From Nostoc sp. HK-01 (GTDB lineage: Bacteria; Cyanobacteriota; Cyanobacteriia; Cyanobacteriales; Nostocaceae): a stretch of 64,000 nucleotides of DNA. Every line of letters starts with the position of its first letter. Positions within the stretch are counted from its first letter, which is position 1. Below the pieces are notes generated by a model, which was given only the letters and a program-made list of their open reading frames with translations, was not told where the DNA came from and searched no databases. Position numbers and translations under genes: made by a program. The DNA is taken from contig AP018318.1 in assembly GCA_003990705.1 (NCBI GenBank), positions 4,095,501 through 4,159,500 of the forward strand. The letters are read 5' to 3'. Positions 8,316 to 62,441 of this stretch are shown in pieces.

Positions 8316-8369
8316 TTGTCTGTCTCTCTACGCTTGCTGGTTGGTGTAGTAATTAAAGTGTTGGGAGAG

Positions 8370-8500
8370 CCTGGGGGGTTCCGCTCCTTCCCTGGGGAGT
8401 CACGAGTGATGAATCATGAATAATGAATAAAAGTCTTCATCCAGCATTCAGCATTCACCATTCTTCCCTCGGTTCCTGGGGCTAAAAACCCCAGGCTATC
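8370..8500 (-). repeat. Intergenic hairpins between nifD and nifK
   Basis: The word agcctgggg near 8370 is complementary to ccccaggct at 8489-8497. A tight local hairpin, cctgggg-7 nt-ccccagg, is at 8475-8495. Between them are the heptad-like words catgaataatgaat and cagcattcagcattcacc. No U-tract follows on the nif strand, so this looks like a processing or stability element (or repeat insertion) rather than a terminator. Confidence 0.6.
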
Positions 8501-8523
8501 CGTTTGATTCTTGGGGGGATGAA

Positions 8524-10017
8524 TTAAGCAGCAGCCTTAGCTTTAGTAGCAGCTTTCTTCCAAGGTGCGCCAATCAAGCTCCAAGTTGGGCTGTTGAGTG
8601 CTAAATCCATATCACGAGCGAAGATAGCGAATCCGTCATAACCGTGATAAGGGCCGGAGTAATCCCAAGAGTGCATTTGACGGAAGGGAAGACCCATCTT
8701 TTGGAAGGCGTACTTCTCTTTAATACCGGAAGCGATTAGATCAGGCTTCTTAGCTTTAACGAATTCCTCGAATTCGTAAGCGGTAACGTCATCGTAAATG
8801 ATGGTGGCGTTATCGATATAGTGGGTGGTACGTTTGTAGTCGTCGTTGTGAGCGAATTCGTAGCCTGTACCGACAACCTTGATACCCAAATCTTCAAAGG
8901 CGGGAACAACGTGACGAGGACGTAGACCACCTACGTACAACATAACGGTGTTACCTTCCAAGCGAGGACGATACTTTTCAAGTACCGCATTCATCACTGG
9001 TGTGTACTTAGCGATGACTTTCTCAGCGTTTTCTTGAATCTTAGAGTCAAATTTAGCGGCGATTTCGCGTAAAGATGCAGCAATCTTGGTGGGGCCGAAG
9101 AAGTTGAATTCCATCCAAGGCATACCGTATTGTTCTTCCAAACTACGGCAGATGTAGTTCATAGAACGGTAGCAGTGGATCAGAACTAACTTAGCAGCAG
9201 GGCCTTGAATCAACTCGTTCAGTGTACCGTCACCAGACCACTGAGCTACAACACGTAAGCCCATTTCTTCTAATAACATCCGGCTGGCCCAAGCATCACC
9301 ACCGATGTTGTAGTCACCGATTAATGCTACGTCGTAGGGGCTTGGCTCGAAGTCGATTGTGTTGTTTTTCTTAGCCTTGTCAAATTCAGGGAAAATCCAG
9401 TCACGGATAGCATCGTTAGCAATGTGGTGTCCTAAAGACTGAGATACACCACGGAAACCTTCGCAACGTAGGGGTACAACTGGTTTACCATATTGCTTAG
9501 AAGCTTTTTTAGCTACAGCTTCGATGTCATCCCCAATTAGACCGATGGGACATTCAGATTGAATGGAAACACCACGGTTTAGAGGGAAGAGAATTTCTAG
9601 TTCGTCGATGATTTTGGTGAGTTTTTTGTCACCACCGAATACGATGTCGCGTTCTTGGAAGTCGGAGGTGAAGTGCATGGTACCAAAGGAGTTGATACCT
9701 GTAATACCTACATAGTAGTTACGACGACCAGACCAAGACCAATAACCGCAACCTACTGGGCCGTGGCTGATGTGGATCATGTCCTTAATAGGGCCCCAAA
9801 CCACACCTTTAGAACCTGCATAAGCACAACCACGAGCGGTCATTACACCAGGAATAGATTTGATGTTAGACTTAACGCCGCAATCGGACTTGCTTTCTTC
9901 GTGGACGTTGAGGTGTTTTTCGCGTTTTTTGCGAGCTTTTTCGGGGTAAGCTTGCAGAACTTCTTTAATAAGTTCCTTATTTTCATCTACAAGATTTTGG
10001 TTTTCTGGAGGTGTCAT
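8524..10017 (-). CDS. nifD: Nitrogenase MoFe protein alpha chain NifD
   Basis: Alpha subunit of the MoFe protein; it holds FeMo-cofactor and shares the P-cluster with NifK. 497 residues, full length. P-cluster cysteines are at 64 (TARGCAYAG), 90 (HGPVGCGYW) and 156 ([12 protein letters not shown]). The FeMo-co cysteine is at about 282 ([11 protein letters not shown]), and the FeMo-co histidine lies in [14 protein letters not shown] near the C-terminus. The gene is uninterrupted, so this genome lacks the xisA-type nifD element found in Anabaena PCC 7120. The C-terminal Ala/Lys tail ([11 protein letters not shown]) is typical. Confidence 0.97.
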
Positions 10018-14283: not shown

Positions 14284-14340
14284 TTATACCCCTAATATTT
14301 CACCCTGATGCTTTTCCATTTGTTCAGAGAACTTCTTTGA
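14284..14340 (-). pseudogene. fdxN: 3' end of fdxN, separated from its 5' part by the element
   Basis: Reading toward nifS, the codons before the TAA stop at 14284-14286 give SKKFSEQMEKHQGEILGV, which I recognise as the conserved C-terminus of the heterocyst bacterial-type ferredoxin FdxN. The next upstream codon is TAG (14341-14343), so homology stops there. In Anabaena PCC 7120 the fdxN element interrupts fdxN at this point and is removed in heterocysts. The 5' part with the Cys ligands is not in the window. The match is from memory of the family and needs alignment. Confidence 0.7.
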
Positions 14341-14391: not shown

Positions 14392-15936
14392 ATGGAAAGT
14401 TGGGGTTATGCCAGAGTCAGTGGTGAAGAACAGCAAACAGATAAAGGTGCGTTGCGTAAACAAATAGAACGCTTGCGTGGTGCAGGATGTTCCAAAGTAT
14501 ATTGGGATATTCAGTCACGGACAACGGAAGTCAGGGAAGGTCTGCAACAATTAATTAATGATTTGAAGACATCGCCCAAGGGTAAAGTTAAATCTCTGCA
14601 ATTTACCCGAATTGACCGGATTGGTTCATCATCGCGGTTGTTTTATTCATTGTTGGAGGTGTTGCGTTCTAAGGGAATTAAACTGATAGCCTTAGACCAA
14701 GGAGTAGACCCTGACAGCCTTGGCGGAGAATTAACCATAGATATGTTGTTGGCGGCTGCCAAATTTGAGGTACGAATGGTGACAGAGAGATTAAAAAGTG
14801 AACGTCGTCATCGGGTGAACCAAGGCAAAAGTCACCGAGTTGCCCCATTAGGATATAGTATAAACAAAGATAAATATATCTGCGATCGCTCTCCATGCGT
14901 TTGCTTATTGGAAGGACGCAAAGAATTAACTGTATCTGATGTGGCAAAGTATATTTTCAATACTTTTTTTGAGTGTGGTTCAGTGGCGGCGACTGTGCGG
15001 AAGTTGCACGCAGATTTCGGTATAGAAACAAAAGCTTTTGATTTGCACAAGCCAGAAACATCTTCACGCATTGTTGGTGATGATGACTTAGATAAAATTG
15101 TATTTACACCACATAAAACGAACCATCCCTTGCGTTATCCCTGGTCTGGGTTAAGATGGTCGATCGCAGGTTTAAAAGCATTATTAGTAAACCCTGTTTA
15201 CGCTGGTGGTTTGCCTTATGATACTTACGTTAAGTCAAAGGGAAAACGCAAAAACTTTGACGAGTGGAAGGTCAAATGGGGAACTCATGATGATGAGGCA
15301 ATCATCACCTACAAAGAACACGAACAAGTAAAACAGATTATCAGAGAAAATCGCAATAACCGATGGGCTTCTGGAGAAGATAACGAAGTAAACCCATTTT
15401 CTAATTTAATTAAGTGCGCTCATTGCGGTGGTTCGATGACGCGCCATGCAAAACGGGTAAATAAGAATGGGGAAGCTATCTATTATTTTCAGTGCCGTCT
15501 GTATAAAGCTGGTAACTGTAGCAATAAAAATATGATTTCATCCAAAATATTAGATATCCAAGTAGTGGATTTTTTAGCTAAAGAAGCCGAAAGGTTAGCG
15601 AACTTGGTTGATACAGATGAGCAAGTTCCTGTAGAGGAACCCCCAGAAGTAAAAACGCTGCGTGCATCTTTGAATACATTGGAAACCTTACCACCAAGTT
15701 CAGCAATTGAACAAATCAAAAATGACCTCAAAGAACAAATTGCGATCGCGCTTGGAACAACACATAATGTAGCCAAAGAATCCCTAATTGCTAAGGAACG
15801 AATTATACAGGCTTTTTCTAATAAAAGTTATTGGTTAGGATTGCAAGCTCAAGATAAACGATTAATACTCAATGGCTGTGTAAAAAAAATATTTGTAGAT
15901 GGCCACTTCATTACAGCCATTGAGTATCGTTATTAA
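14392..15936 (+). CDS. xisF: XisF-type large serine site-specific recombinase
   Basis: A 514-residue large serine recombinase of the XisF type, expected to recombine the direct repeats at the element ends and rejoin fdxN in differentiating heterocysts. The resolvase catalytic domain (about 1-145) has the nucleophile Ser10 in GYARVSGEEQ and the RIDRIG motif. A recombinase domain follows, with a zinc-ribbon pair LIKCAHCGGSM and YYFQCRLYKAGNCSNK around 345-380, then a coiled-coil-like C-terminus. The start lies 50 bp inside the element. The frame is intact. A 3'-end paralogue, broken by IS elements, lies at 33012-38362. Confidence 0.9.
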   Translation: MESWGYARVSGEEQQTDKGALRKQIERLRGAGCSKVYWDIQSRTTEVREGLQQLINDLKTSPKGKVKSLQFTRIDRIGSSSRLFYSLLEVLRSKGIKLIALDQGVDPDSLGGELTIDMLLAAAKFEVRMVTERLKSERRHRVNQGKSHRVAPLGYSINKDKYICDRSPCVCLLEGRKELTVSDVAKYIFNTFFECGSVAATVRKLHADFGIETKAFDLHKPETSSRIVGDDDLDKIVFTPHKTNHPLRYPWSGLRWSIAGLKALLVNPVYAGGLPYDTYVKSKGKRKNFDEWKVKWGTHDDEAIITYKEHEQVKQIIRENRNNRWASGEDNEVNPFSNLIKCAHCGGSMTRHAKRVNKNGEAIYYFQCRLYKAGNCSNKNMISSKILDIQVVDFLAKEAERLANLVDTDEQVPVEEPPEVKTLRASLNTLETLPPSSAIEQIKNDLKEQIAIALGTTHNVAKESLIAKERIIQAFSNKSYWLGLQAQDKRLILNGCVKKIFVDGHFITAIEYRY

Positions 15937-39429: not shown

Positions 39430-41034
39430 CTAGCGAGAAGTATTAAGTATTATTGATTCCACATAACCATTCCGAACAGTGATTTTTTCAACTAACCTTG
39501 AATAAATAGCAACCTTGTCGTCATGGGTAAGGGTGTACCAAATGAAGAGATTATTTCCAGCTTGAATAATTTCTTCAACAGTTTTGGTATCAATTGCATT
39601 AGTAGAGAAAGGATTGATTTCTTCTTGAATCTCGCGCAAAGTTTTCTGTTTGAGTGCTTCTAGTTCTGGATCAAAATCTGGAATTTCTTCTAACTTTGCT
39701 AACCGAGCTTCTAATTTTGTAAGTTTTGAAGATTTAGTTGGTAATTCTGGAGAGGGACTATTTGTGTGTAAAGCTCTAGCTTGGAGTACAAATGATTGTT
39801 GCAATAAGTGACTAATCAAGGCCTTTTCAATCGCATCCTTTCTAGTAGCTTTCCGGTTTTTACATCCTTGACTAGCATGGCGACAAGCATAATAGTGATA
39901 CCTGATTTTGCCCCCATAAGTTTTGGTGATGCATTTACAATTACATTCGGCACAATAGACAAGACCTCGTTGGTAAGCGAATTCTCCATAACCATCAGGC
40001 TTAGAGGAATCATAGTTATAAAGAAAAGCTCCGCATCTAGATGAATTAAATTCAAGAATATTTTCAATCTCAGTTGCTTCCTCATCAGAGATTAGCCGAT
40101 CATTAGGGTGGGTGTCGTAAATAATTTGCCAATCCTTTGGATCAACATTTTTACGTTGACCTGTACTGGTCTTGATTCGCTTGTTGTAGACTGTATGTCC
40201 GCGCAGTACTGGATTAGTTAACCAACGCCTCAGCCCTTGTGGACTCCAGTGAAAAATCTTGTCATTTCCATTTTTCTTACTATGAGTGTGCTGTATCCCA
40301 TATTTATTGCAAATTTCACGGCAGGCTCTACTCACTCCCTTCGTTTTGAAAAAGATATCAATACAGTCCCTTGCAAGTTGAGCACTCCTGAGTCCAGGGA
40401 GCTTGTCAATATCTTCTTCATGATACATATCTGCATAGTTGTTAGGTCTTTCTAGAAGCAGACATAGGAAGGGAGTTTGATCTAGTTGATAACGTAGCTT
40501 TTCAGCCTTATATCCAAACGGTACACATTCACATACTGCATGTTGGTTACGACGATGCTGTTTACCGTGTTTAACTCGTTCTGAGAGTTGATCGACCTCC
40601 ATTTCAGCAAGGCTGGCTAGTAGGTTGATCATAAACATGCCTTGTGCTGTTTTTAGGTCAATTAATTGATCAAGTACTCGTAAATTAATCCCAGTCTCTT
40701 GAAAAACCAAAATATTTTTTCGTATTAAAGGAACACTTCGACCGAGACGATCTAACCGAGTGATAATAACTTCAGCAATTTGGTTTTCTTTGACAAGTTG
40801 CATGAGTTTAATTAACCCTGGGCGATTATCTTTCTTACCAGTCTGCACATCAACAATTATTAAATAAGCTCCACTATCTTTTAATCTTTGAATTTGCTGA
40901 TCTAATGCATGAGAATTTACTGCTTGTTCTCTGCTCGATACCCGTGCATAGCCGACTTTTATCTCCAAATCAAGCTCAACTGTATTTGTAATAAGATAAT
41001 TGATGCCTGTTAATATTTTTTCTATTTGTTTCAT
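39430..41034 (-). CDS. Large serine recombinase, second (XisF-like)
   Basis: A 534-residue large serine recombinase. The nucleophile Ser33 is in KVGYARVSSREQAVNSHALD, and EVIITRLDRLGRS is the resolvase signature. The recombinase domain is followed by a zinc ribbon (VYCAECNCKCITKTYGG ... YYACRHASQGCKNRK) and a coiled-coil C-terminus (KLEARLAKLEEIPDFDPELE). Same architecture as XisF but clearly diverged from it; for example the catalytic domain has an uncharacterised 25-residue N-terminal extension. Neighbours on the same strand are a zinc-ribbon gene (downstream) and a 290-residue gene of unknown function (upstream). It probably belongs to another element. Confidence 0.9.
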   Translation of the reverse strand: MKQIEKILTGINYLITNTVELDLEIKVGYARVSSREQAVNSHALDQQIQRLKDSGAYLIIVDVQTGKKDNRPGLIKLMQLVKENQIAEVIITRLDRLGRSVPLIRKNILVFQETGINLRVLDQLIDLKTAQGMFMINLLASLAEMEVDQLSERVKHGKQHRRNQHAVCECVPFGYKAEKLRYQLDQTPFLCLLLERPNNYADMYHEEDIDKLPGLRSAQLARDCIDIFFKTKGVSRACREICNKYGIQHTHSKKNGNDKIFHWSPQGLRRWLTNPVLRGHTVYNKRIKTSTGQRKNVDPKDWQIIYDTHPNDRLISDEEATEIENILEFNSSRCGAFLYNYDSSKPDGYGEFAYQRGLVYCAECNCKCITKTYGGKIRYHYYACRHASQGCKNRKATRKDAIEKALISHLLQQSFVLQARALHTNSPSPELPTKSSKLTKLEARLAKLEEIPDFDPELEALKQKTLREIQEEINPFSTNAIDTKTVEEIIQAGNNLFIWYTLTHDDKVAIYSRLVEKITVRNGYVESIILNTSR

Positions 41035-44725: not shown

Positions 44726-47700
44726 TTATTGCTGGAGATGCCAATATTGTTCACAAGTGGCTTTAGCTTCTTTGGCGACGGCATCTTTAGGTGTGGCAAG
44801 AATAACGTGATAGCGTAATTTTTCACAGGCACTTTTCATCCAATGGTCAAAATTAATATCCCACAACCTGACTGTGCCATCATCTCCACCACTGATAATA
44901 GTTTTGCCATCACTGCTGATTGCTACTGACTTGACACCATCCTGATCAGCTTTGAATGGTTCAGCCAGGGGCTGACCATTGCGATCCCACAACCTGAGTG
45001 TGTCATCCTCTCCACCACTGACAATAGTTTTGCCATCACTGCTGATTGCTACTGGAAGGATAAAACCCTGATGAGCTTTGAATGGTTCAGCCAGGGGCTG
45101 ACCATTGCGGTCCCACAACCTGAGTGTGCCATCAGATCCACCACTGACAATAGTTTTGCCATCACTGCTGATTGCTACTGAAAAGACATAACCCTGATGA
45201 GCTTTGAATGGTTCAGCCAGGGGCTGACCATTGCGGTCCCACAACCTGAGTGTGCCATCAGATCCACCACTGACAATAGTTTTGCCATCACTGCTGATTG
45301 CTACTGACAAGACAGTATCCTGATCACTTTTGAATGGTTCAGCCAAGGGCTGAGCATTGCTGCCCCACAACCTGAGTGTGCCATCAAATCCACCACTGAC
45401 AATAGTTTTGCCATCACTGCTGATTGCTACTGAACTGACTCTACCCTGATGACCTTTGAACGGTTCAGCCAGGGGCTGAGCATTACTGCCCCACAACCTG
45501 AGTGTGCCATCCTCTCGACTACTGACAATAGTTTTGCCATCACTGCTGATTGCTACTGAACGGACACTACCCTGATAACCTTTGAATGGTTCAGCCAAGG
45601 GCTGAGCATTGCTGCCCCACAACCTGAGTGTGCCATCCTCTTCACCAATGACAATAGTTTTGCCATCACTGCTGATTGCTACTGAATCGACACTACCCTG
45701 ATCAGCTTTGAATGGTTCAGCCAAGGGCTGACCATTGCGGTCCCACAACCGGACTGTGCCATCATCTCCACCACTGACAATAGTTTTGCCATCACTGCTG
45801 ATTGCTACTGAAAAGACACTACCCTGATCAGCTTTGAATGGTTCAGCCAGGGGCTGACCATTGCGGTCCCACAACCTGAGTGTGCCATCATCTCCACCAC
45901 TGACAATAGTTTTGCCATCACTGCTGATTGCTACTGAACGGACAAAACCCTGATGACCTTTGAATGGTTCAGCCAGGGGCTGACCATTGCGGTCCCACAA
46001 CCGGACTGTGCCATCTTGTCCTCCACTGACAATAGTTTTGCCATCACTGCTGATTGCTACTGAACGGACAAAACTCTGATCAGCTTTGAATGGTTCAGCC
46101 AGGGGCTGACCATTGCGGTCCCACAACCGGACTGTGCCATCTTGTCCTCCACTGACAATAGTTTTGCCATCACTGCTGATTGCTACTGAAAAGACAACAC
46201 CCTGATGACCTTTGAATGGTTCAGCCAGGGGCTGACCATTGATGCCCCACAACCGGACTGTGCCATCATCTCCACCACTGACAATAGTTTTGCCATCACT
46301 GCTGATTGCTACTGAATCGACAACACCCTGATGACCTTTGAATGGTTCAGCCAGGGGCTGACCATTGATGCCCCACAACCGGACTGTGCCATCTTTTCCA
46401 CCACTGACAATAGTTTTACTATCACTGCTGATTGCTACTGAATCGACAACACCCTGATCAACTTGAAAAATATTGATCTCATGACTAATTTGAACAGCAC
46501 TAAACAAACTTCTTTCAACTGAAGCTGGCATCGTATAGTTAGGAAATTTTACCAAAGGTGAGCGAGTTAATCCGACAGATGCAATGGCATTAACTAACCC
46601 TTCTGTTGGATTAGTCGCCAGCAATGCTTTTCCTGTTTGAGCATAGGCTTCTGCCTGTTGTCGCTTTGACTGCTGCCAAGCATAGCCAGCCAAACTTGCT
46701 AACACTATCGTGATTGCAGCAGCTACAGTTGAGCCAATAGCTATTCTTCGCGCTTGCTTTAACTCTCGCTGGCGGCGTTCTTCTTCTTGCTTAATTAAGC
46801 GTAGGCGCAATTCCCAACAAGCTTTGACATATTCAGCTTCCGATTCGTTTAAAAAGTCAGGTTTTTGCAATAACACCTGGGCATTTTCTAATTGAATACC
46901 CCGCAGTTCTAGGTAGTCTTCGTTGCGTTGATGCTGATTCCAATCAAATGCTTCTTGCCGAATTTTCTCGCGCAAGAGTAAGCTGCTGCGGTCTTCTTCT
47001 AACCAGTTTTGCAACTTTGGCCAGTGACGGATTAAAGCTTCATGGGCAACTTCTACCTCTTGTTTACCAGTTGCTTGGTGATAACTGGTGACTACTAGCC
47101 GCGCTCCTTCACCTGCCAAATACTGTACCAGTTTCTTGGTTACTGCTAAATCGCCATTTTTTGAGACTAAATCTTTTAGCTCTTCTCGCCGCCTTGTATC
47201 TCGGCGATTCTCTACCTGTGCGGTAGTTGCATCCAAGCGGGTTAAGCGTAAAAATATATTTTTGACTTGCTGTTGCTCTTGGGGTGATAACTTGTTGTAA
47301 ACAGCATCGGCAGTTTGCGCGATCGCTTGCTGCACTCTACCAATTGCTTGGTATTCTTCATCACATAACCACCGCCCATGTCGCCGCTTCCAGAGTTCCT
47401 GCAAAGCATATTGCAGCAGTGGCATTGCCCCTGGCTCTTCTTTGACATCATTAAATATAGAATTGCTCAAGCCAGCTTCAAAGCGTAACCCTGCCCGATC
47501 TGCCTGCATTTTCATCGCTGTAATCAGTTCTGCCGCTTCCATTGGCAAAACTATTTCGTTTTGGGATTCTATCCGCTTTTTCAAATCGGGGTAGGCAGCA
47601 TACTCAGCTAAAAAGTCCGCCCGGATAGTAATTACAACTTGCTGCTTTTCGGCACGGTTTAACAATTCTGTAATAAATTTTTGGCGAGCGGTTTTATCTT

Positions 47701-49405
47701 CGCACAGAGTAAACAGTTCTTCAAATTGGTCTACTATCAATATGGAATTTTGCTTTAATATCTGTGATAAATTTTCTAATTGTTGAATTGGCTCTTTACC
47801 CGGTTTAATATAAGCCAACTGGAGATTTGGCTGTTGTTTTTGCAACTGCGGAATTAGCCCAGCTAACACCACCGATGACTTACCACTACCGGAAGGGCCG
47901 ATAACAGCTAAGAAATTATCTTGACTTAGTTTTTTTTGTAACTTTTTAATTAATTCATCGCGCTCAAAGAAGAATTTGTGGTAATTTTCTTCAGCAAAGG
48001 AAGATAATCCAGGGAAAGGACACTCAGCCTCATATTTTGGTGGATTTTTATCTAAAGCAGCCAGGGCATCAAAGCTAAGGTCAAGCACTTGGTCGCAGAG
48101 ATTGTTCAGTTCCGCTAATGCCTGTTTGCGTTCATCACTAGCGCGGCGTGAGTCTGCGCCTTGGGTGTTTTTGAGTATCTGCGTTTGGGTTGCAAACTTC
48201 TGTTGCAGTACAGACGCATGAGGTGCTCGTTCAACCAGTAACTTTTGCAGTTTGTTGATCCCATACTCAACTTCTACATCAGTTAAGTCTCGATTGTCGA
48301 GGCGATCGCTAAATAAAGGTCGTCCACCCAAGCGGCTAAATAAGGCTGGAACTGTAATATCATAGCGGTTCCCTAGTCCTGCTGTCGCCTGCTGTAGTGC
48401 AACGTCAACCTCTCCCGAATCTTTCAGTCGGCGGTAAAAACTCCCAGACAATGTTAAGGCTGTCTCTACGCTTACCTTCCGAGTCATGGCGACGACAGCA
48501 GGCATACCTAAATCTCTCACCAAGCGTTGCGCTAATCCGCCTAATGCGCCTTCTGCTCTGGGGTCGGCACTTTCGCAAGTGCAGAGAAAGGTAAAATGAG
48601 GTAAACCTGTGCGATCGCTTATGTAGCTGAGTTCATCTAGTAGTTCTTTGCCTGTGACTGGCAGAACTTGATTGTTAGCCTCTGCCCAGTAAAGAACAGT
48701 TTCTCCGCCATCAATCAATTTACCATGACAAACAAAATGCAGTATGGTGTAGGGCTTTTCGGCGTTGGTTAGTTGCTGAGATAATTTTTGTAGGGTTGGG
48801 GGTGCGATCGCGTTTTCAACATCATTTGCTAACACATCATAATGAATATCCCCGAATGCTTCCTGTAGCCCAGCTAGTACAGCTTTCACATCAAAGGGTT
48901 CTAATTGATACTTTCCTAAGTTAGATGGACTAGCAATTAACACTAATGCCCGCAAATCCCGCCGCCCTATGAGCGGAAAACGACGATCTATAGGAGTAGG
49001 AATGTAACGCGAGAATGGTAGACGCTGGTCACGCGCTAAAAGATTCCAGCCTTCGTTATTATCTACAGGGGCGCACAACCTTTCCCAATGTAAAGTTCTA
49101 ATTTCATCGCGATCGGCAGCTTCAATAGAAAGTAAAATCCGTAAAGGGCAATCATGGCTACTCTTTGGCAAAACCCGTAAAAATGTGTCTCGCACATTGT
49201 CTCGAAAAAGATGTTTGCCCAGTAAAATACCATATTCTTTTTCGTTTTCTTGTTTTTCTGTCAGCTTGTAAAAGTCTTCCTCACCTAGCTGAAGAATTCC
49301 CCTGGAATGAATAGTCAAGCCATCTGGTTGCTTACACCTGATAACAATCGGCCAGCCATTACTCGACTTGCTTTGAATAGTAATTTCAAACTCAAAGCTA
49401 TTCAT
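44726..49405 (-). CDS. CHAT protease-ATPase (STAND)-WD40 repeat protein
   Basis: A 1559-residue multidomain protein. CHAT caspase-like protease: about 150-365, with the His227-Cys277 dyad (ILHFVCHG; FLCTCESADPRAEG). STAND/NACHT-type ATPase: Walker A GPSGSGKSS at 503-511, Walker B ILIVDQFEELF at 555-565, with the RIESQNEIVL and PGAMPLLQYALQELW motifs of WD40-linked ATPases. A membrane helix lies at about 888-910 (IAIGSTVAAAITIVLASLAG). Then 13 WD40 repeats of 42 residues, about 985-1530. The design predicts a sensor (WD40), a switch (ATPase) and an effector protease, as in NLR-like conflict or antiphage proteins. The trigger and protease target are not readable. It stands alone on its strand, divergent from the VMAP-like gene. 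Confidence 0.88.
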   Translation of the reverse strand: MNSFEFEITIQSKSSNGWPIVIRCKQPDGLTIHSRGILQLGEEDFYKLTEKQENEKEYGILLGKHLFRDNVRDTFLRVLPKSSHDCPLRILLSIEAADRDEIRTLHWERLCAPVDNNEGWNLLARDQRLPFSRYIPTPIDRRFPLIGRRDLRALVLIASPSNLGKYQLEPFDVKAVLAGLQEAFGDIHYDVLANDVENAIAPPTLQKLSQQLTNAEKPYTILHFVCHGKLIDGGETVLYWAEANNQVLPVTGKELLDELSYISDRTGLPHFTFLCTCESADPRAEGALGGLAQRLVRDLGMPAVVAMTRKVSVETALTLSGSFYRRLKDSGEVDVALQQATAGLGNRYDITVPALFSRLGGRPLFSDRLDNRDLTDVEVEYGINKLQKLLVERAPHASVLQQKFATQTQILKNTQGADSRRASDERKQALAELNNLCDQVLDLSFDALAALDKNPPKYEAECPFPGLSSFAEENYHKFFFERDELIKKLQKKLSQDNFLAVIGPSGSGKSSVVLAGLIPQLQKQQPNLQLAYIKPGKEPIQQLENLSQILKQNSILIVDQFEELFTLCEDKTARQKFITELLNRAEKQQVVITIRADFLAEYAAYPDLKKRIESQNEIVLPMEAAELITAMKMQADRAGLRFEAGLSNSIFNDVKEEPGAMPLLQYALQELWKRRHGRWLCDEEYQAIGRVQQAIAQTADAVYNKLSPQEQQQVKNIFLRLTRLDATTAQVENRRDTRRREELKDLVSKNGDLAVTKKLVQYLAGEGARLVVTSYHQATGKQEVEVAHEALIRHWPKLQNWLEEDRSSLLLREKIRQEAFDWNQHQRNEDYLELRGIQLENAQVLLQKPDFLNESEAEYVKACWELRLRLIKQEEERRQRELKQARRIAIGSTVAAAITIVLASLAGYAWQQSKRQQAEAYAQTGKALLATNPTEGLVNAIASVGLTRSPLVKFPNYTMPASVERSLFSAVQISHEINIFQVDQGVVDSVAISSDSKTIVSGGKDGTVRLWGINGQPLAEPFKGHQGVVDSVAISSDGKTIVSGGDDGTVRLWGINGQPLAEPFKGHQGVVFSVAISSDGKTIVSGGQDGTVRLWDRNGQPLAEPFKADQSFVRSVAISSDGKTIVSGGQDGTVRLWDRNGQPLAEPFKGHQGFVRSVAISSDGKTIVSGGDDGTLRLWDRNGQPLAEPFKADQGSVFSVAISSDGKTIVSGGDDGTVRLWDRNGQPLAEPFKADQGSVDSVAISSDGKTIVIGEEDGTLRLWGSNAQPLAEPFKGYQGSVRSVAISSDGKTIVSSREDGTLRLWGSNAQPLAEPFKGHQGRVSSVAISSDGKTIVSGGFDGTLRLWGSNAQPLAEPFKSDQDTVLSVAISSDGKTIVSGGSDGTLRLWDRNGQPLAEPFKAHQGYVFSVAISSDGKTIVSGGSDGTLRLWDRNGQPLAEPFKAHQGFILPVAISSDGKTIVSGGEDDTLRLWDRNGQPLAEPFKADQDGVKSVAISSDGKTIISGGDDGTVRLWDINFDHWMKSACEKLRYHVILATPKDAVAKEAKATCEQYWHLQQ
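44816..46453 (-). repeat. 13 tandem 126-bp repeats encoding WD40 blades
   Basis: Thirteen in-register repeats of 126 bp (42 residues), with the constant core SVAISSDGKTIVSGG and DGT(L/V)RLW and the constant linker QPLAEPFK. Several units are near identical in DNA. Differences gather at a few codons: x in G-x-V-x-SV, the residue before DGT, the two or three residues after RLW, and the (A/G/S)(D/H/Y)Q end. This indicates unequal crossover or gene conversion. Confidence 0.92.
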
Positions 49406-49983: not shown

Positions 49984-51342
49984 ATGAATCTTGATTCTTT
50001 AATTGAAATAGTTAACCGTAAGTTGGTGGAGAGCCAAAATCGTCCCCTCAGTTCCACAGAGGTTTTGATTCTTCGCGGCATCTGGGAATATCAAACTTAT
50101 AACAAGATTGCTGAGTACGGTGGCTATAGTGCTGGCTACTTAACTAACGTGGTAGCCCCAGAGTTATGTCAACGGCTTTCTAATTTAATTGGACAACGGG
50201 TTACTAAAAAAAACTGTCGGATGCTATTGGAGGCTTATGTTGCTTCTCAAACAGCTTCAGACTTAAAAACTCAAAAATCACAGTTTAAAGCATTTGCTGG
50301 CGAAATTGGTCAAGAGTTTTCTCATCGCTACCCTAATGGTGCAGTTCCCCTTGATTCTTCCATTTACATTGAACGTATTTTAATTGAAGAACAGGTTTAT
50401 GCAGAAATTAGCAAGCCAGGAGCATTAGTGCGAATTAAAGCTCCCAAAGAAATGGGTAAAACTTCACTTATGCTCAGGACTTTAAAATATGGAGAAAGTT
50501 TAGGCTACTGTACCGTCAGCTTAAATCTAGAGCAAACTGACCAAGCAATATTAAGTGATTTGAATCGTTTTCTACGCTGGCTATGTGTCAATATAACTAG
50601 TCAGCTTAATTTAGAACCCAAACTAGACGATTACTGGTATGAAGATATGGGCAGCAAAGTTAGCTGTAGTTTGTATATTAGAAACTATTTATTAGAGAAC
50701 ATTAATGCTCCTTTAGTTTTGGCATTGGATGAGGTCAACCAGATTTTTGAATATCCCCAGGTAGCTAAAGATTTTTTACCCTTGCTACGTTCTTGGTATG
50801 AAGAAGCTAAAAGACTACCTATCTGGCAAAAGCTACGCTTGATCATAGTTCATTCAACTGAAATTTATGTTCCTCTCCAAATTCAACAGTCTCCTTTCAA
50901 TGTCGGCTTACCAATTCAATTAACTAGCTTTAATTTAGAACAGGTGCAGCAGTTAGCCCAGCAATATGGAATTGACTGGACTGATGGAGATGAAGCTAGA
51001 CAACTTATGGATATGGTTGGGGGACATCCCGCATTAGTGAACATAGCACTCTATCATCTTAATCGTGGGGAGGTAAATCTTCCTGAATTGCTAGAAACTG
51101 CTCCTACCTCGACTGGGGTTTATTTTCACCACTTACAACGTCATTGGGTAAGTTTACAACAACAACCTGAATTAGCGATCGCACTTACTACTGTCCTCAA
51201 TTCTACTCAACCAATACAGTTAGAGCCTATCATTGCTTACAAGTTAAGCAGTATGGGGCTGATCAAGTTAGATAATAACCAAGCCATACCTAGTTGTCGA
51301 TTATATCAACAGTATTTTCAGTCAAGGCTTCTTATTCAATAG
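49984..51342 (+). CDS. VMAP-type HTH plus AAA-like (AAA_35) ATPase
   Basis: A 452-residue protein. The N-terminal domain (about 1-85: LSSTEVLILRGIWEYQTYNK, GYSAGYLTNVVAPELCQRLS, TKKNCRMLLE) matches the HTH domain found at the N-terminus of vWA-MoxR associated proteins of ternary conflict systems. The ATPase (about 117-390) has Walker A PKEMGKTSLM (GKT 158-160) and Walker B LVLALDEVNQIF. The C-terminal winged-helix-like part ends YQQYFQSRLLIQ. The same ATPase type occurs at 62466-64000. It begins the plus-strand run that leads to the YcaO genes. Role: signal-coupled ATPase; target unknown. Confidence 0.82.
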   Translation: MNLDSLIEIVNRKLVESQNRPLSSTEVLILRGIWEYQTYNKIAEYGGYSAGYLTNVVAPELCQRLSNLIGQRVTKKNCRMLLEAYVASQTASDLKTQKSQFKAFAGEIGQEFSHRYPNGAVPLDSSIYIERILIEEQVYAEISKPGALVRIKAPKEMGKTSLMLRTLKYGESLGYCTVSLNLEQTDQAILSDLNRFLRWLCVNITSQLNLEPKLDDYWYEDMGSKVSCSLYIRNYLLENINAPLVLALDEVNQIFEYPQVAKDFLPLLRSWYEEAKRLPIWQKLRLIIVHSTEIYVPLQIQQSPFNVGLPIQLTSFNLEQVQQLAQQYGIDWTDGDEARQLMDMVGGHPALVNIALYHLNRGEVNLPELLETAPTSTGVYFHHLQRHWVSLQQQPELAIALTTVLNSTQPIQLEPIIAYKLSSMGLIKLDNNQAIPSCRLYQQYFQSRLLIQ

Positions 51343-51662: not shown

Positions 51663-52556
51663 ATGAGTTTACCGAATGCTTATAATATCCTTATTCCCCA
51701 AAAAAGGCTCTCCCAACTAATTGCTCAGTCATGGTTAGATGGTAAGAGTATTCCTTTAGAAAATAAAAGCTTTTTGATTGAACAGAAAATTTTGTCTCCA
51801 GAAGAAGCTGAAGTTTTCCGTATAATTTTAGTAGAAACACATCAAGTTGAAATAGATGAGGTAGATAAGAAAATTGTCATGCCTGCTTATCGACCAGACC
51901 CAGAAGTACTAGAAGATCTAGATATCAGAGAGTGGCTTTATAATTGGGTTACAAGTAATCCGAAACAATCCCCTTGGATAGCACCACCACCACCAAAACC
52001 AGAAGTGAATATAGAAAAGCCAGGAAAAGTCATAGTTTTTGATTCACCTAATGAACAGAGTCTGCTGAATGAAAATGCCAGCGAAATCAAAACTTTGCAA
52101 ATTCCTTTACTACCAAGTGTAAAAGTTTTCCAAGGGGCTGATATCAACATATCATCATATGAGCAAGAAGCTAGAGATGACCAAAAAACAGTAGAAATAG
52201 AAATAGAACCTTTTAATACTCTGATTCCCAATAAAAAACTTTCTCAACTGATTGCCAAATCATGGTTAGACAATAAAGAAGTTAATATCGATAAAGAATT
52301 TCTGGTTAATAATGGCATTATCTCTGAATTTGAGGCTCAATTTAAGATTGATATTCATGTTGAGCGGAATCAGCCACCGCGTGAATATAAAGGAGGAATA
52401 ACACCACAGCAATATGGTTACAAGATAAATGTACCTTATCCTCCAAAACCTAGCAGTGAAAATTTACCAGAAGATGTTTTAAGAGAATGGGTAGAAAATG
52501 ACTCAAATTCTGCTCCTTGGACACCAAGCAATGAATGGATTCCTTACACTTGCTGA
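51663..52556 (+). CDS. Double NHLP-like domain protein beside TOMM cyclodehydratase
   Basis: A 297-residue protein made of two similar halves (about 9-110 and 185-288). Each half has LIPxK(R/K)LSQLIA(Q/K)SWLD(G/N)K, a middle helix, a beta stretch (IILVETHQVEI / IDIHVERNQPP), a KIVMPAYRPDP / KINVPYPPKPS segment and REW(L/V). This order (LIAKSW, then V-E-x, then MP-RP) recalls nitrile-hydratase-leader-like (NHLP) peptides. The C-terminal tail NDSNSAPWTPSNEWIPYTC has Ser, Thr and Cys that a YcaO enzyme could cyclise. It could be a precursor with two leader units, or an immunity or partner protein. The gene start is supported by gaggatgtataatctatg. Confidence 0.6.
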   Translation: MSLPNAYNILIPQKRLSQLIAQSWLDGKSIPLENKSFLIEQKILSPEEAEVFRIILVETHQVEIDEVDKKIVMPAYRPDPEVLEDLDIREWLYNWVTSNPKQSPWIAPPPPKPEVNIEKPGKVIVFDSPNEQSLLNENASEIKTLQIPLLPSVKVFQGADINISSYEQEARDDQKTVEIEIEPFNTLIPNKKLSQLIAKSWLDNKEVNIDKEFLVNNGIISEFEAQFKIDIHVERNQPPREYKGGITPQQYGYKINVPYPPKPSSENLPEDVLREWVENDSNSAPWTPSNEWIPYTC

Positions 52557-52851
52557 TGGTTGATAAATATAGAATTTTTCAGTTGAGCGCAGTACACGTA
52601 GATAGGGGACAGAGGCTAGGGACTAGAGCCTAGAGGCTAGAGAAATGTACCTCACTGAAATGAAAACCACTATATTATTTTTAGGATTTATTACCCTAAA
52701 AATATTGAAGTCAAACATTTAGTCCTGTTAAAAATAATGGTGAGGGAATAGTTATTTATTCTCTCATCTTCAGATAGATGCTTAAATTTCAAAAAAATAA
52801 TTAATTAGCTTATCAAATAGTGTTCAATTTAACGAATTGAGGTTAATAAAT

Positions 52852-55122
52852 ATGTTGACTCGTCCAAAGTTAAAAACCAGCTTTAAATATTTTAAATTTC
52901 TTAACAAAAATAATGAGCATACGTTATTACTGTCTGAAAGAAAGGCTAATTTTCTCAATGGTTATGTATATCAAATGTTAATTCCATTAATTAATGGCAA
53001 GTATACAGTTGATGAAATTGTTGACTTACTTATGCAAAAAAGTATAACTGCTAGTGAAATTTATTATGCTCTGATGGCAATGGAAAAAATGGGATATATT
53101 ATTGACAGCAATGAATGTTTACCATCCCATCTAGAAATTTTTTGTGAAAATTTAAATATTAATACATACACTGCTTATCAAAGATTACAAACAACTAAAG
53201 TAGCAATTAAATCTTTTAGCTCTTATCTTCCTGTTGATGAATTCAAAAATACTCTTGAATCCTTACATATTGAAGTAACATCCGAATTAGGAGATATAGA
53301 GATAGTTTTAACTGATGATTATTTGCATGATGAGTTAAAAAGTTTTAACGAGGAATCCTTAAAATTAAATAAGCCTTGGATGTTAGTAAAACCTGTAGGC
53401 ACAATAGTTTGGATAGGGCCTATATTTATTCCTGGTAAAACAGGTTGTTGGCATTGTCTAGCCCAACGCTTGCGAAATAATAAACCTGTAGAAAGATTTA
53501 TCGAAAGACATCAAGGAATTTCCACATCTTTAACTCCTCCTCTGGGTTCGTTAGCTACCACTTATCAAACTGCGTTGGGAATGGCTGCTACTGAAATTTT
53601 TAAATGGATAGTTCAAGGTGAAAATAAACGTTTGGAGGGAATGCTAGTTACCCATGATTCTATTAATTTAGAAATGCAAAACCATGTTTTAGTAAAGCGT
53701 CCTCAATGCCCATACTGTGGTAATAGCAATGGATTTAATGCTGAACCATATCCAATAGTTTTAGGACATCGGCAGAAAACATTTACATTAGATGGAGGAC
53801 ACCGTTGTATTTCTCCAGAGGAAACATTCAAGAAATATCAACACCATATTAGTCCTTTAACAGGAGTAGTGAGAGGACTAGGTAAAATAGATCAAAATTC
53901 CCACACTTTAATTCATATTTATGTAGCTAGGCATCACTTTGCTACGATATTTGATGATTTAGATGCTTTACGGCAAAATATTAGCGGTAGAAGCGCAGGA
54001 AAAGGAAAAACTGACCAGCAAGCAAAAGTTAGTGCTTTGTGCGAAGCTATTGAAAGGTATTCTGGGGTATTTCAAGGAAATGAGAATAGGCAAACAGGAA
54101 GTTATCAACAACTTATAGATAAAGCGATTCATCCTAATGCTTGTATGAATTTTAGTGAAGCACAATATAGCGATCGCCACAACTGTAATGCAAATTGTTC
54201 TGGCTGGGTTCAAAAAATTCCCGAACCTTTTGATGAAGAGAAAGAAATTGAGTGGACACCAGTTTGGTCTTTAACTTATCAGGAATTTAAGTATTTACCA
54301 ACAGCCTACTGCTATTACGGTTATCCTAACTTGTTAATGCCTGATTGTTGGGCTGACTCTAATGGTTGTGCTGCTGGTAATACTATAGAAGAAGCAATCC
54401 TTCAAGGTTTCATGGAATTAGTAGAGCGTGATTGTGTGGCTTTGTGGTGGTATAATCGTCTCAAAAAACCGCAGGTAGATTTAGAAAGTTTTGACAATCC
54501 TTATTTTATAGCTCTCAAGAAATATTACCAAACAATTCATCGGGAACTGTGGGTTTTAGATATTACTAACGATTTAAACATCCCAACTTTTGCTGCTATC
54601 AGTCGCAGAACAGATCGAACCGTAGAAGATATCATTCTTGGTTTTGGCACTCATTTTGATCCGCAGATTGCTATGAGCAGAGCTTTAAGTGAAATAAACC
54701 AAATTCTGCCTAATGTCTTATCTGCCAATGCTGATGGTAGTACGAAATATCCTGCTTCTTCAGATCCTCTTGCTCTTAAATGGTGGCAAACAGCAACAGT
54801 AGAAAATCAATCTTATATGCTTGCCGATAAGAATATTACACCCAAATTATCTATGAATTATCATCATAATTGGAGTGAAGATTTACTGGAAGATATCATA
54901 CGCTGTCAGCAATTAGTTGAAAAGAATGGTATGGAAATGCTGGTTTTGGATCAAACTCGTGCAGACGTTAAACTGAGGGTAGTTAAAGTGATTGTTCCGG
55001 GAATGCGTCATTGGTGGAGACGTTTAGGTTCAGGAAGATTGTATGATGTTCCTGTAAACATGGGTTGCTTGAAGCAGCCACTAACTGAGAATCAACTTAA
55101 TCCTTTTCCCATGTGGATGTAA
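52852..55122 (+). CDS. Fused TOMM cyclodehydratase (RRE/E1-like + YcaO)
   Basis: A 756-residue RiPP enzyme. N-terminal winged-helix leader-binding (RRE-like) part at about 20-85 (LLLSERKANFLNGYVYQMLI, NGKYTVDEIVDLLM). An E1-like domain carries a zinc tetrad, Cys199/202 and Cys286/289 (TGCWHCLAQRL; PQCPYCGNS). The YcaO domain, about 330-756, has SGRSAGKGKTDQQAKVSALC and EAIERYSG, then NGCAAGNTIEEAILQGFMEL and VERDCVALWW. It would use ATP to cyclise Cys/Ser/Thr to azolines or attack another amide. Start chosen at ATG 52852, with gagg nine bases before it; the upstream TTG frame (52837) is weaker. It ends NPFPMWM, a proline-containing tail as in TOMM YcaOs. Confidence 0.9.
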   Translation: MLTRPKLKTSFKYFKFLNKNNEHTLLLSERKANFLNGYVYQMLIPLINGKYTVDEIVDLLMQKSITASEIYYALMAMEKMGYIIDSNECLPSHLEIFCENLNINTYTAYQRLQTTKVAIKSFSSYLPVDEFKNTLESLHIEVTSELGDIEIVLTDDYLHDELKSFNEESLKLNKPWMLVKPVGTIVWIGPIFIPGKTGCWHCLAQRLRNNKPVERFIERHQGISTSLTPPLGSLATTYQTALGMAATEIFKWIVQGENKRLEGMLVTHDSINLEMQNHVLVKRPQCPYCGNSNGFNAEPYPIVLGHRQKTFTLDGGHRCISPEETFKKYQHHISPLTGVVRGLGKIDQNSHTLIHIYVARHHFATIFDDLDALRQNISGRSAGKGKTDQQAKVSALCEAIERYSGVFQGNENRQTGSYQQLIDKAIHPNACMNFSEAQYSDRHNCNANCSGWVQKIPEPFDEEKEIEWTPVWSLTYQEFKYLPTAYCYYGYPNLLMPDCWADSNGCAAGNTIEEAILQGFMELVERDCVALWWYNRLKKPQVDLESFDNPYFIALKKYYQTIHRELWVLDITNDLNIPTFAAISRRTDRTVEDIILGFGTHFDPQIAMSRALSEINQILPNVLSANADGSTKYPASSDPLALKWWQTATVENQSYMLADKNITPKLSMNYHHNWSEDLLEDIIRCQQLVEKNGMEMLVLDQTRADVKLRVVKVIVPGMRHWWRRLGSGRLYDVPVNMGCLKQPLTENQLNPFPMWM

Positions 55123-55150
55123 TAGTTAATTGAAATTAAGTGATAGATTA

Positions 55151-56251
55151 ATGGTAAAAGAATATTCAATTATTGATGCAGATTCCCATGTATTTGAACC
55201 TTTTGATATGTGGGAAAAGTATTTAGAACCTGCTTATAAGAACTTTGCACCATCACCGGATATGAAAATTCAAGGTGAAGATATTTATTATAAAGCTTCT
55301 GGTGAAGTTGTCGCTCAATGGAATAAGCAGATTATGCAAGCTCATCCAATGGCTCGACTTAATGGCTTCACTAATGAGCTTCATGTTTTAGAAACAAAAA
55401 GAATGGGGGCTGATATTTCTTTTATTTACCCAACATTGGGAATGTCAATCATAGCAATTGATACGATGGAACCTAATTTAGCAGGTGCGTTTACTCGCGC
55501 TTACAACAACTGGTTGTACCAAGATTTTTGCAGTTATGACCCAAAAATTCTTAAAGGAGTAGGTATGATTAATCTTCATACGCCTGAAGAAATGGTGTCA
55601 GAGTTGTATCGCATTGCAGAATTTGATTGCAAAGCAGTCTGTTTACGCCCCAACCCAGTTAAGGGAAGGTTATTGAGCGACTCTGCTTATGAACCTTTTT
55701 GGACAGAATGTGAAAAACTGGGAATAGCCATCAGCATTCACGAAGGAACTCATAGCCGCTTGCCTACAGTTGGTGCAGATAGGTTCAATACTCGGTTTGC
55801 CTTGCGTTCTTGCTCCCATCCTATGGAGCAGATGATGGCCATGCTTGCTTTAATTGAAGGAGGAGTCTTAGAACGTCATCCTCAGTTAAGAGTAGGTTTT
55901 CTAGAGTCTGGTTGTGGTTGGTTAGTTTACTGGCTATGGCGTTTGGATGAAGAGTATGAATGTCATTACTGGGAAGTTAAGGATAATGTCAAGCTTAAAC
56001 CTTCAGAATACTTTAAACGCCAATGTTTTATCGGATATGAACTAGGAGAACCTGGCGTTGAGTCGGTAATTAAGTATATTGGTGCAGATCAGTTAATTTT
56101 TGGTTCTGATTACCCTCATGTTCATTGGAGTCAAACAGAAGGAGAAACTGGATGTTTCCATATTCAAAAAACTCTTCACGAACTACTACCAAAAGAAACT
56201 GTGAAAAAAATTCTTTGGGATAATCCTGCCCGTTTTTATGGTTTACAATAA
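55151..56251 (+). CDS. Amidohydrolase-2 (ACMSD-like) family protein
   Basis: A 366-residue TIM-barrel metal hydrolase. The DADSHVFEPFDMW start gives the first metal histidine, CKAVCLRPNPVKGRLLSD and ISIHEGTHSRLPT supply the central part with His, and LIFGSDYPHVHWSQTEG holds the catalytic Asp. Start chosen at the ATG at 55151 (MVKEYSIIDADSH), 28 bp after the YcaO stop, so both are one operon. Family members hydrolyse or decarboxylate ring and amide compounds. In bottromycin-type RiPP clusters an amidohydrolase acts after the YcaO, so a tailoring role is plausible; that is analogy, not proof. Confidence 0.88.
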   Translation: MVKEYSIIDADSHVFEPFDMWEKYLEPAYKNFAPSPDMKIQGEDIYYKASGEVVAQWNKQIMQAHPMARLNGFTNELHVLETKRMGADISFIYPTLGMSIIAIDTMEPNLAGAFTRAYNNWLYQDFCSYDPKILKGVGMINLHTPEEMVSELYRIAEFDCKAVCLRPNPVKGRLLSDSAYEPFWTECEKLGIAISIHEGTHSRLPTVGADRFNTRFALRSCSHPMEQMMAMLALIEGGVLERHPQLRVGFLESGCGWLVYWLWRLDEEYECHYWEVKDNVKLKPSEYFKRQCFIGYELGEPGVESVIKYIGADQLIFGSDYPHVHWSQTEGETGCFHIQKTLHELLPKETVKKILWDNPARFYGLQ

Positions 56252-62072: not shown

Positions 62073-62441
62073 ATGAAGATCATGGTTGTAGATGACGAAC
62101 AAGATGTCCAATTCTTGTTTAAACAAAAATTTAGAAAAGAACTTAAAGGAAATCAAATTAAATTATATTTTGCTTTTTCAGCAGAAGAAGCACTGGAATA
62201 TTTACAAAGTAAGCTAACTAGTTGTCTAAACCTAATTGTCACGGATATTAATATGCGTGGAATGAATGGTTTAGAAATGCTCAAACTAATTAAAGAAAAA
62301 TATCCAGCTTTGAAAGTATTCATTATTACTGCTTATGATGATGAAGAGAATTATTTGACGGCAAAACAATATGGTGCTGATGGCTATATTACTAAGCCCA
62401 TTGAATTTAATCAACTCAAGCAAAAAATCTTAAATTTATAA
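62073..62441 (+). CDS. Single-domain response regulator
   Basis: A 122-residue receiver domain. The acidic pocket is MKIMVVDDEQDVQ at the N-terminus; the phospho-acceptor Asp is near residue 58 in LIVTDINMRGMNG. The Thr/Lys pair lies in FIITAYDDEE and GYITKPIEFNQL. There is no output domain, so it may relay phosphate. It lies 267 bp after the hybrid kinase gene and 24 bp before the next response-regulator gene. It probably receives phosphate from the histidine kinase upstream. Confidence 0.92.
   Translation: MKIMVVDDEQDVQFLFKQKFRKELKGNQIKLYFAFSAEEALEYLQSKLTSCLNLIVTDINMRGMNGLEMLKLIKEKYPALKVFIITAYDDEENYLTAKQYGADGYITKPIEFNQLKQKILNL

Follow-up and report, generated by a model that had tools for sequence, protein, structure and literature searches.

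The window analysed here, a 64,000-nt stretch of Nostoc sp. HK-01 (GCA_003990705.1, contig AP018318.1, 4,095,501 to 4,159,500, forward strand), carries a gene set of the thiazole/oxazole-modified microcin (TOMM) type, within the ribosomally synthesized and post-translationally modified peptides (RiPPs), in which a 297-aa protein built from two leader-like units is followed by a fused E1-like/YcaO cyclodehydratase and by a PF04909 'amidohydrolase' (hereafter AH). A first-pass annotation, made from the letters of the DNA, had proposed these three genes, and all of them are present where it placed them (Table 1). Its assignment of the set to TOMM/RiPP biosynthesis is upheld; the YcaO protein scores above the cut-offs of the TOMM models TIGR03882 (175.6 bits, cut-off 36.9) and TIGR03604 (262.9 bits, cut-off 219.25) and also matches PF02624, confirming the fused architecture. 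We took the YcaO start at ATG 52852, as in the homologue from Nostoc sp. FACHB-280, and the AH start at 55151, since this codon, Met8 of the TTG frame, is conserved in 59 of 59 homologues; the gap between the two genes is then 28 bp, in agreement with the coupling first proposed. Reading the open reading frame (ORF) lists of the window revealed no RiPP protease or transporter gene, again as first noted, and a Pfam scan of the window covered eleven ORFs.

Table 1. Features of the gene set and its surroundings, in window coordinates
Feature	Position	Strand	Evidence
Precursor/scaffold, 297 aa, two fused NHLP-clan units, C-terminus EWIPYTC	51663..52556	+	Internal repeat, profile comparison; unfused pairs in L204, L208, L214
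First NHLP-like unit (residues 7-100), without core tail	51681..51962	+	Internal repeat
Second NHLP-like unit (about residues 184-285), PYPPKP motif	52212..52517	+	Repeat, alignment, profile comparison
C-terminal core EWIPYTC	52533..52553	+	Tail statistics; Thr296 and Cys297 predicted ring formers
Fused E1-like leader-binding domain and YcaO cyclodehydratase, 756 aa	52852..55122	+	TIGR03882, TIGR03604, PF02624; nearest solved MusD, LynD, TruD
AH, 366 aa, predicted diiron-type oxidative decarboxylase of the PtmU3/LynB7 kind	55151..56251	+	PDB match, metal ligands
Ser/Thr kinase-AAA_16-GAF-histidine kinase, 1820 aa	56343..61805	+	Pfam domains, tree, linkage
Response regulator	62073..62441	+	Family in 13/60 fetched stretches, some ending before this place
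AAA_35 protein, frequently upstream, set membership uncertain	49984..51342	+	PF14516; family in 32/60 stretches
11-bp word, left edge of the fdxN element enclosing the set	14330..14340		Right copy at 77119, beyond the window

Recurrence of the gene set and its kinase

Of 192 Nostocaceae genomes, 48 encode AH at E 1e-60 or better and 74 encode YcaO, sister paralogues included. A phylum sample of 367 genomes contains AH in 18 (1e-100), spread over several families of the order to which the Nostocaceae belong. We fetched 60 stretches around AH- or YcaO-type genes, labelled here by L-numbers, 51 of which hold AH. Among these 51 Nostocaceae loci, 47 each carry a YcaO gene and a precursor-like gene, which bears out the predicted co-occurrence of the three genes elsewhere, and 43 carry a giant Ser/Thr-kinase/histidine-kinase, usually in the order precursor-YcaO-AH-kinase or YcaO-AH-precursor-kinase. 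Because the set recurs in many genera, a chance grouping at this locus is excluded. The closest copy lies in Nostoc sp. FACHB-280 (92% for the precursor) and the next closest on a plasmid of Nostoc sp. MS1, where the genes are annotated as hypothetical protein, TOMM precursor leader peptide-binding protein, amidohydrolase family protein, ATP-binding sensor histidine kinase and response regulator.

A tree of 73 YcaO proteins, from which the near-copy of the window (L065) was dropped, contains 54 rows with an adjoining AH, 10 with a SagB-type oxidase, 9 with neither and none with both, so that sister YcaO loci bear a SagB/ThcOx oxidase in place of AH; all ten SagB proteins were identified by BLAST, and six of them were checked with hidden Markov models. 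The AH-bearing clade has 58 rows, of which 52 have AH; of the remaining six, L117 and L118 have AH on another contig. In L117 and L118 the order precursor-AH-kinase occurs without an adjoining YcaO gene, the YcaO of these genomes being found on a separate contig beside another precursor, an arrangement suggesting that AH pairs with the precursor.

The kinase combines protein kinase, AAA_16, GAF, HisKA and HATPase domains (Pfam), and about 17 such proteins, the window's included, are encoded in the 7.5-Mb genome of Nostoc sp. HK-01. In a FastTree phylogeny of 52 cluster-linked kinases and 15 paralogues from the own genome (L065 again dropped, as were ORFs of 1250 aa or less), 50 of the 52 group together with just one of the 15 paralogues, so this kinase lineage travels with the gene set; the two outlying cluster kinases belong to the SagB-type loci L123 and L149 and are placed among other paralogues. 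We rejected the possibility that the kinase is a chance neighbour, as about 17 copies in this genome do not account for its presence in 43 of 51 AH loci. The first-pass annotation had noted signalling genes on both sides of the set; on the right this holds, the kinase being a recurring part of the set.

Precursor leaders and conserved C-terminal tails

The 297-aa protein is internally duplicated, as its residues from 7 onwards align with those from 184 onwards at 39% identity over 104 columns (two-sequence BLASTP, E 9e-14), in keeping with the tandem double leader first proposed. Its kinship to the nitrile hydratase leader peptide (NHLP) family is less direct. The NHLP model TIGR03793 gave no match to the window protein up to E 10, and neither did Nif11, TIGR03795 or other NCBIfam and Pfam models; in the set of relatives scanned, the best scores were 47.9 bits against TIGR03793 (cut-off 50.9) and 22 bits against TIGR03795 (cut-off 41). 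Profile comparison of the window precursor family with classic NHLPs was weak (61.6%, 7.8e-5), but three bridging relatives (from L123, L149 and L167, ending IPACC), one of which matches TIGR03793 at 9.2e-13, under its cut-off, connect to the window family at 98.9% (1.4e-17) and to NHLP at 97.2% (3.3e-11); the reversed control gave 0.2%. These comparisons suggest that the window leader joins the NHLP clan only through the bridging relatives; the NHLP nature proposed for the double leader has indirect support from this profile link, and none from a direct match to the NHLP or Nif11 models. The check that the first-pass annotation had set against itself, namely that the protein belongs to an unrelated family and never co-occurs with a YcaO gene, was run and left the proposal standing. 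A PDB profile search with the precursor alignment placed an NHLP chimera at E 0.022; proteasome matches in the same search were taken as chance. In L123 and L149 the short NHLP-like precursors have YcaO, SagB and a giant kinase as neighbours, and these loci may represent the system in a SagB version.

At L204, L208 and L214 two separate short genes occupy the place of the window's single fused gene; one member of each pair has no tail, and the other ends WIPYSC, PYIPYTC or WIPYSSC. A precursor profile search of the Nostoc sp. HK-01 genome returned a single gene, that of the window. The 71 precursors collected (a 93-aa ORF of L115 was dropped) range from 100 to 416 aa, and a 35-row alignment has a mean column identity of 16%, with only Met1, one Trp and one Pro invariant. 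Although they differ in size and leader, these proteins mostly share a tail such as PYIPLSCS or EWIPYTC, with IPLSCS, IPLSTT, IPTTCS, IPVSGS, IPLTAC and WIPYTC as further examples. The last residue is Ser, Thr or Cys in 66 of the 71, a set partly chosen by its tail, and in 52 of 55 members of two similarity clusters taken regardless of tail. In the 29 long precursors of the ~350-aa class, the nine residues around the tail are on average 81% identical (anchoring on Ile/Leu/Met-Pro may inflate this by up to two of the nine places), whereas the whole proteins are 43% identical. No GG motif was seen in the tail region of the precursors as read.

As the tail had helped to choose part of the 71 precursors, profiles without the last 14 residues were applied to a further 40 stretches, yielding 40 matches in 29 loci; the profiles derive from the 71-protein set and the new loci are kin to it, 35 of the 40 stretches holding an AH more than 45% identical. 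Compared with a background of 467 mechanical, uncurated ORFs, the matches were enriched for Ser, Thr or Cys as last residue (25/40 versus 72/467), for these residues in the last or penultimate place (35/40 versus 119/467) and for an [ILMVF]-Pro pair within the last eight residues (28/40 versus 71/467). The binomial p of 2e-11 is too small given the relatedness of the sequences, but the direction is clear. The other 15 matches comprise eight with Phe, Leu or Val after Ser, Thr or Cys, one ending Ser-Arg and a remainder resembling tail-less pair members or pieces. A stricter rule, that Ser, Thr or Cys always follows IP-x, was rejected on the counterexamples IPACC, IPIAGT and LPLACF. Two further precursors, from named Gloeothece plasmids, end IPISAST and IPIAGT; the Gloeothece verrucosa PCC 7822 plasmid (L202) has, in one stretch, a precursor with the end NPYIPISAST, two YcaO genes, the amidohydrolase and a SagB dehydrogenase.

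The accessory enzymes of a locus follow its tail class. Relatives of DyP-type peroxidases occur in 7 loci with tails such as GGIFLIGS, CxxCH proteins in 13 loci with tails such as VYIPVSGS, and radical SAM/SPASM proteins in 12 loci with tails such as NPYIPTTCS and IPFTT, a pairing suggesting that related C-terminal chemistries form a family. None of the three protein types occurs in L065; the window itself lay outside this search. The CxxCH loci are L078, L079, L080, L082, L083, L104, L105, L145, L215, L221, L232, L233 and L240, with L202 and L203 in addition; the CxxCH protein is about 500 aa long, has a signal-like N-terminus in those inspected and stands beside precursors ending VYIPVSGS or similar, and three such proteins that were scanned matched none of the family models. 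The radical SAM/SPASM loci are L072, L075, L081, L090-L093, L140, L142, L144, L218 and L243, with IPTTSS among their precursor ends; the stretches of L081, L090 and L092 are without an amidohydrolase.

The amidohydrolase and the predicted C-terminal azole

The first-pass annotation had pointed to the amidohydrolase-YcaO pairing of bottromycin, an analogy that our searches do not support for the amidohydrolase. The best solved match of AH in a PDB search is PtmU3 (1.3e-39), after which come ACMSD-like decarboxylases and further proteins of the PF04909 type; among its 43 PDB matches none is named as a bottromycin enzyme, but several are named just 'Amidohydrolase'. According to PMC10127204, PtmU3 is a diiron monooxygenase, and the PtmU3-like LynB7, which is 14% identical to the bottromycin enzyme PurAH, oxidatively decarboxylates 2-thiazoline-4-carboxylic acids to thiazoles, requires a free carboxylate and uses the ligands D11, H13, H197, E252, D320, H323 and D325. 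The window AH has the six-ligand set D, H, H, E, D, H of the PtmU3/LynB7 diiron enzymes: D18, H20, H204 and E259 are present in 59 of 59 aligned rows, D327 in 58 of 58 and H330 in 57 of 58, and a second set, restricted to ORFs longer than 330 aa, has all six in each of its 42 rows. The only row without H330 comes from L120, a locus without YcaO or precursor. The L120 homologue (8001-9086) also lacks the extra Asp, its stretch is without a kinase, and it is possibly orphaned, decaying or repurposed.

Because these ligands are combined with a YcaO partner and a substrate usually ending in Ser, Thr or Cys, we propose that AH oxidatively decarboxylates a C-terminal azoline. In this scheme the E1-like/leader-binding domain of the fused protein would dock the NHLP-type scaffold; the YcaO domain would cyclodehydrate the C-terminal Ser, Thr or Cys (Thr296-Cys297 here) to an azoline, so that the end of the chain would be the carboxylate on the ring; AH, as a diiron enzyme of the PtmU3/LynB7 type, would convert this azoline by oxidative decarboxylation to a C-terminal azole, much as the SagB-type dehydrogenase serves as the oxidising enzyme of sister clusters; and the Ser/Thr-kinase/histidine-kinase, here together with a response regulator, may control or read the system. 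On whether the set is a TOMM system in which YcaO and AH make a conserved azole at the C-terminus of an NHLP scaffold, we find the evidence evenly balanced.

Several observations weigh against this proposal. Tails of a second type carry Phe, Leu or Val after Ser, Thr or Cys (IPLSCL, IPVTF, LPLACF and, in L069, TFF); they make up 5 of the 71 precursors and 8 of the 40 tail-masked matches, roughly one tail in eight, and are troublesome because a terminal azoline there would be without a free ring carboxylate. Twelve of the 40 tail-masked matches have no [ILMVF]-Pro pair in their last eight residues. SagB and AH occur together in G. verrucosa PCC 7822 and in L229, which led us to reject strict mutual exclusion of the two, and SagB-family matches exist elsewhere in the Nostoc sp. 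HK-01 genome. The precursor was not found in 4 of the 51 AH loci and the kinase in 8, some of these at contig ends. As for AH itself, its likeness to LynB7 and BarH is one of ligand positions as described in PMC10127204; the window enzyme has His332 where LynB7 and BarH have Asp and PtmU3 has Glu (in the first set 53 of 58 rows have Asp at this extra position, whereas the window, L065, L066, L068 and L204-L208 have His); and the six ligands are also kept in relatives at 29-32% identity, marking a broad family and not a reaction. AlphaFold models from two-row alignments were of low confidence (predicted local distance difference test scores of 36.5 for AH and 35.2 for the precursor) and were not used.

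A hydrolytic AH is the alternative that its PF04909 annotation brings to mind: as with PurAH, a thiazoline-specific amidohydrolase according to PMC10127204 and PMC7136475, the enzyme would cut the amide beside a thiazoline, trimming the last residue or residues or freeing the product without any oxidation, and the tails with one hydrophobic residue after Ser, Thr or Cys would suit the removal of a one-residue follower. However, the best solved match, PtmU3, is described as an oxygenase in PMC10127204, the distance between LynB7 and PurAH is large, and the 66 of 71 and 25 of 40 tails that end in a ring-forming residue leave nothing to trim, so we consider this alternative unlikely. An ordinary secreted TOMM toxin cluster, with AH as an accessory of no chemical consequence, is a still less probable account. 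Its appeal lies in the overall layout, which resembles that of the NHLP-Burk clusters (Haft et al., 2010; PMC2887384), but it is at odds with the constancy of AH in its YcaO clade (including the two loci with AH on another contig), with tails that are conserved and not hypervariable, and with accessory oxidoreductases that go with the tail class.

Another possibility, compatible with the proposed azole formation, is that the tail is never released and that the product is the 100-416-aa protein itself, which would keep its heterocyclised C-terminus permanently and serve inside the cell as a signalling or redox protein read by the kinase. The long scaffolds, the higher identity of the tail region than of whole proteins in the ~350-aa class, the lack of a GG motif in the tail region and of an exporter in the set as read, and the kinase lineage linked to the set all favour it. 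TOMM leaders, however, are normally removed, and housekeeping proteases or distant exporters could act here; we regard an unreleased tail as a serious possibility that falls somewhat short of probable. Since the core varies less than the leader, a physiological role is suggested. The fullest version of the azole proposal is a ribosomal pathway on an NHLP scaffold, with a core that hardly varies, a YcaO enzyme and a diiron oxidative decarboxylase; its C-terminal azole would act inside the cell as a signal or redox group, be read by the giant kinase of the set, and be a conserved physiological product, not a toxin. This version is in our view speculative and rather doubtful. If the proposed system were real, many orphan fused YcaO proteins of cyanobacteria would acquire substrates, a diiron oxidative decarboxylase would enter RiPP chemistry, and the giant kinases of heterocystous cyanobacteria, for which we know of no signals, would be tied to a modified peptide tail.

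Among described systems, the nearest is the NHLP-Burk group, for which Haft et al. (2010; PMC2887384) report tandem NHLP pairs, fused in Delftia and Acidovorax, with a single or double C-terminal Cys in one member, a fused TIGR03882 cyclodehydratase, a large Ser/Thr kinase, and neither a GG motif nor a matching transporter. The loci described here share the fused cyclodehydratase, the tandem NHLP-like units, fused or paired, with a C-terminal Cys in one, the adjoining large kinase in 43 of 51 AH loci, and the lack of GG motif and transporter. They differ in that the window precursor matches neither TIGR03795 (none of the precursors scanned reaches its cut-off) nor TIGR03793, in the kinase, whose C-terminal part is a histidine kinase and whose 126.2 bits fall well short of the TIGR03903 cut-off of 705.75, in the conserved tail, and in the PF04909 enzyme of most loci, the word 'amidohydrolase' occurring 0 times in the main text of PMC2887384. 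We take the window set to be a cyanobacterial counterpart of the NHLP-Burk TOMM kind but not a member of it by family models, set apart by its conserved tail and its predicted diiron-type enzyme. LynB7 and BarH of the lyngbyapeptin and barbamide pathways resemble AH in being PtmU3-like, in the D-H-H-E-D-H ligands and in the extra Asp of most relatives, but in the account of PMC10127204 they act on nonribosomal peptide synthetase products, whereas here a YcaO enzyme and a ribosomal scaffold are present and the window's extra position is His. Bottromycin likewise has a C-terminal thiazole made by oxidative decarboxylation of a YcaO azoline (PMC7136475), but unlike the present set it relies on standalone YcaOs, a follower peptide, a cytochrome as decarboxylase and a hydrolytic amidohydrolase. 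The cyanobactin heterocyclases MusD, LynD and TruD are the closest solved relatives of the YcaO protein, but neither a PatA/PatG-type protease nor a cyanobactin precursor was noticed among the window ORFs, no profile search having been made. We found no description of this gene set in the literature searched, in which most subscription journals are missing, so that this is no proof of absence, and the literal tail PYIPLS gave 0 matches there.

The enclosing fdxN element and flanking genes

The first-pass annotation had further suspected an fdxN element around the set, and this was borne out by an fdxN gene that reads as split between nifB and nifS, an edge repeat and a recombinase. nifB, which starts at 4173057 of the contig, and a Fer4 protein that we read as FdxN lie at about 77.1-78.9 kb in window numbering; the latter ends SKKFMLSN, and a frame at 14.3 kb beside nifS continues from SKKF to a stop, from which we infer that the 14.3-kb segment is the missing FdxN C-terminus. 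An 11-bp word is common to 14330 and 77119 (other 10-bp words are shared by chance), and a serine recombinase gene lies at 14392-15936. Judged from these sequence features, the TOMM set would sit inside an fdxN element of ~62.8 kb, from 14330 to ~77119. Because fdxN elements are excised in heterocysts, the set would then act in vegetative cells. In FACHB-280 the left flank, which we compared, differs from that of the window beyond the esterase gene; the position within an fdxN element is therefore not essential. A second large serine recombinase is encoded at 39430-41034, and between it and the set, at 44726-49405 on the minus strand, lies a gene for a 1559-aa nSTAND1/WD40 protein with many near-identical WD40 repeats, the matching region of which in FACHB-280 (L004) reads as two short ORFs.

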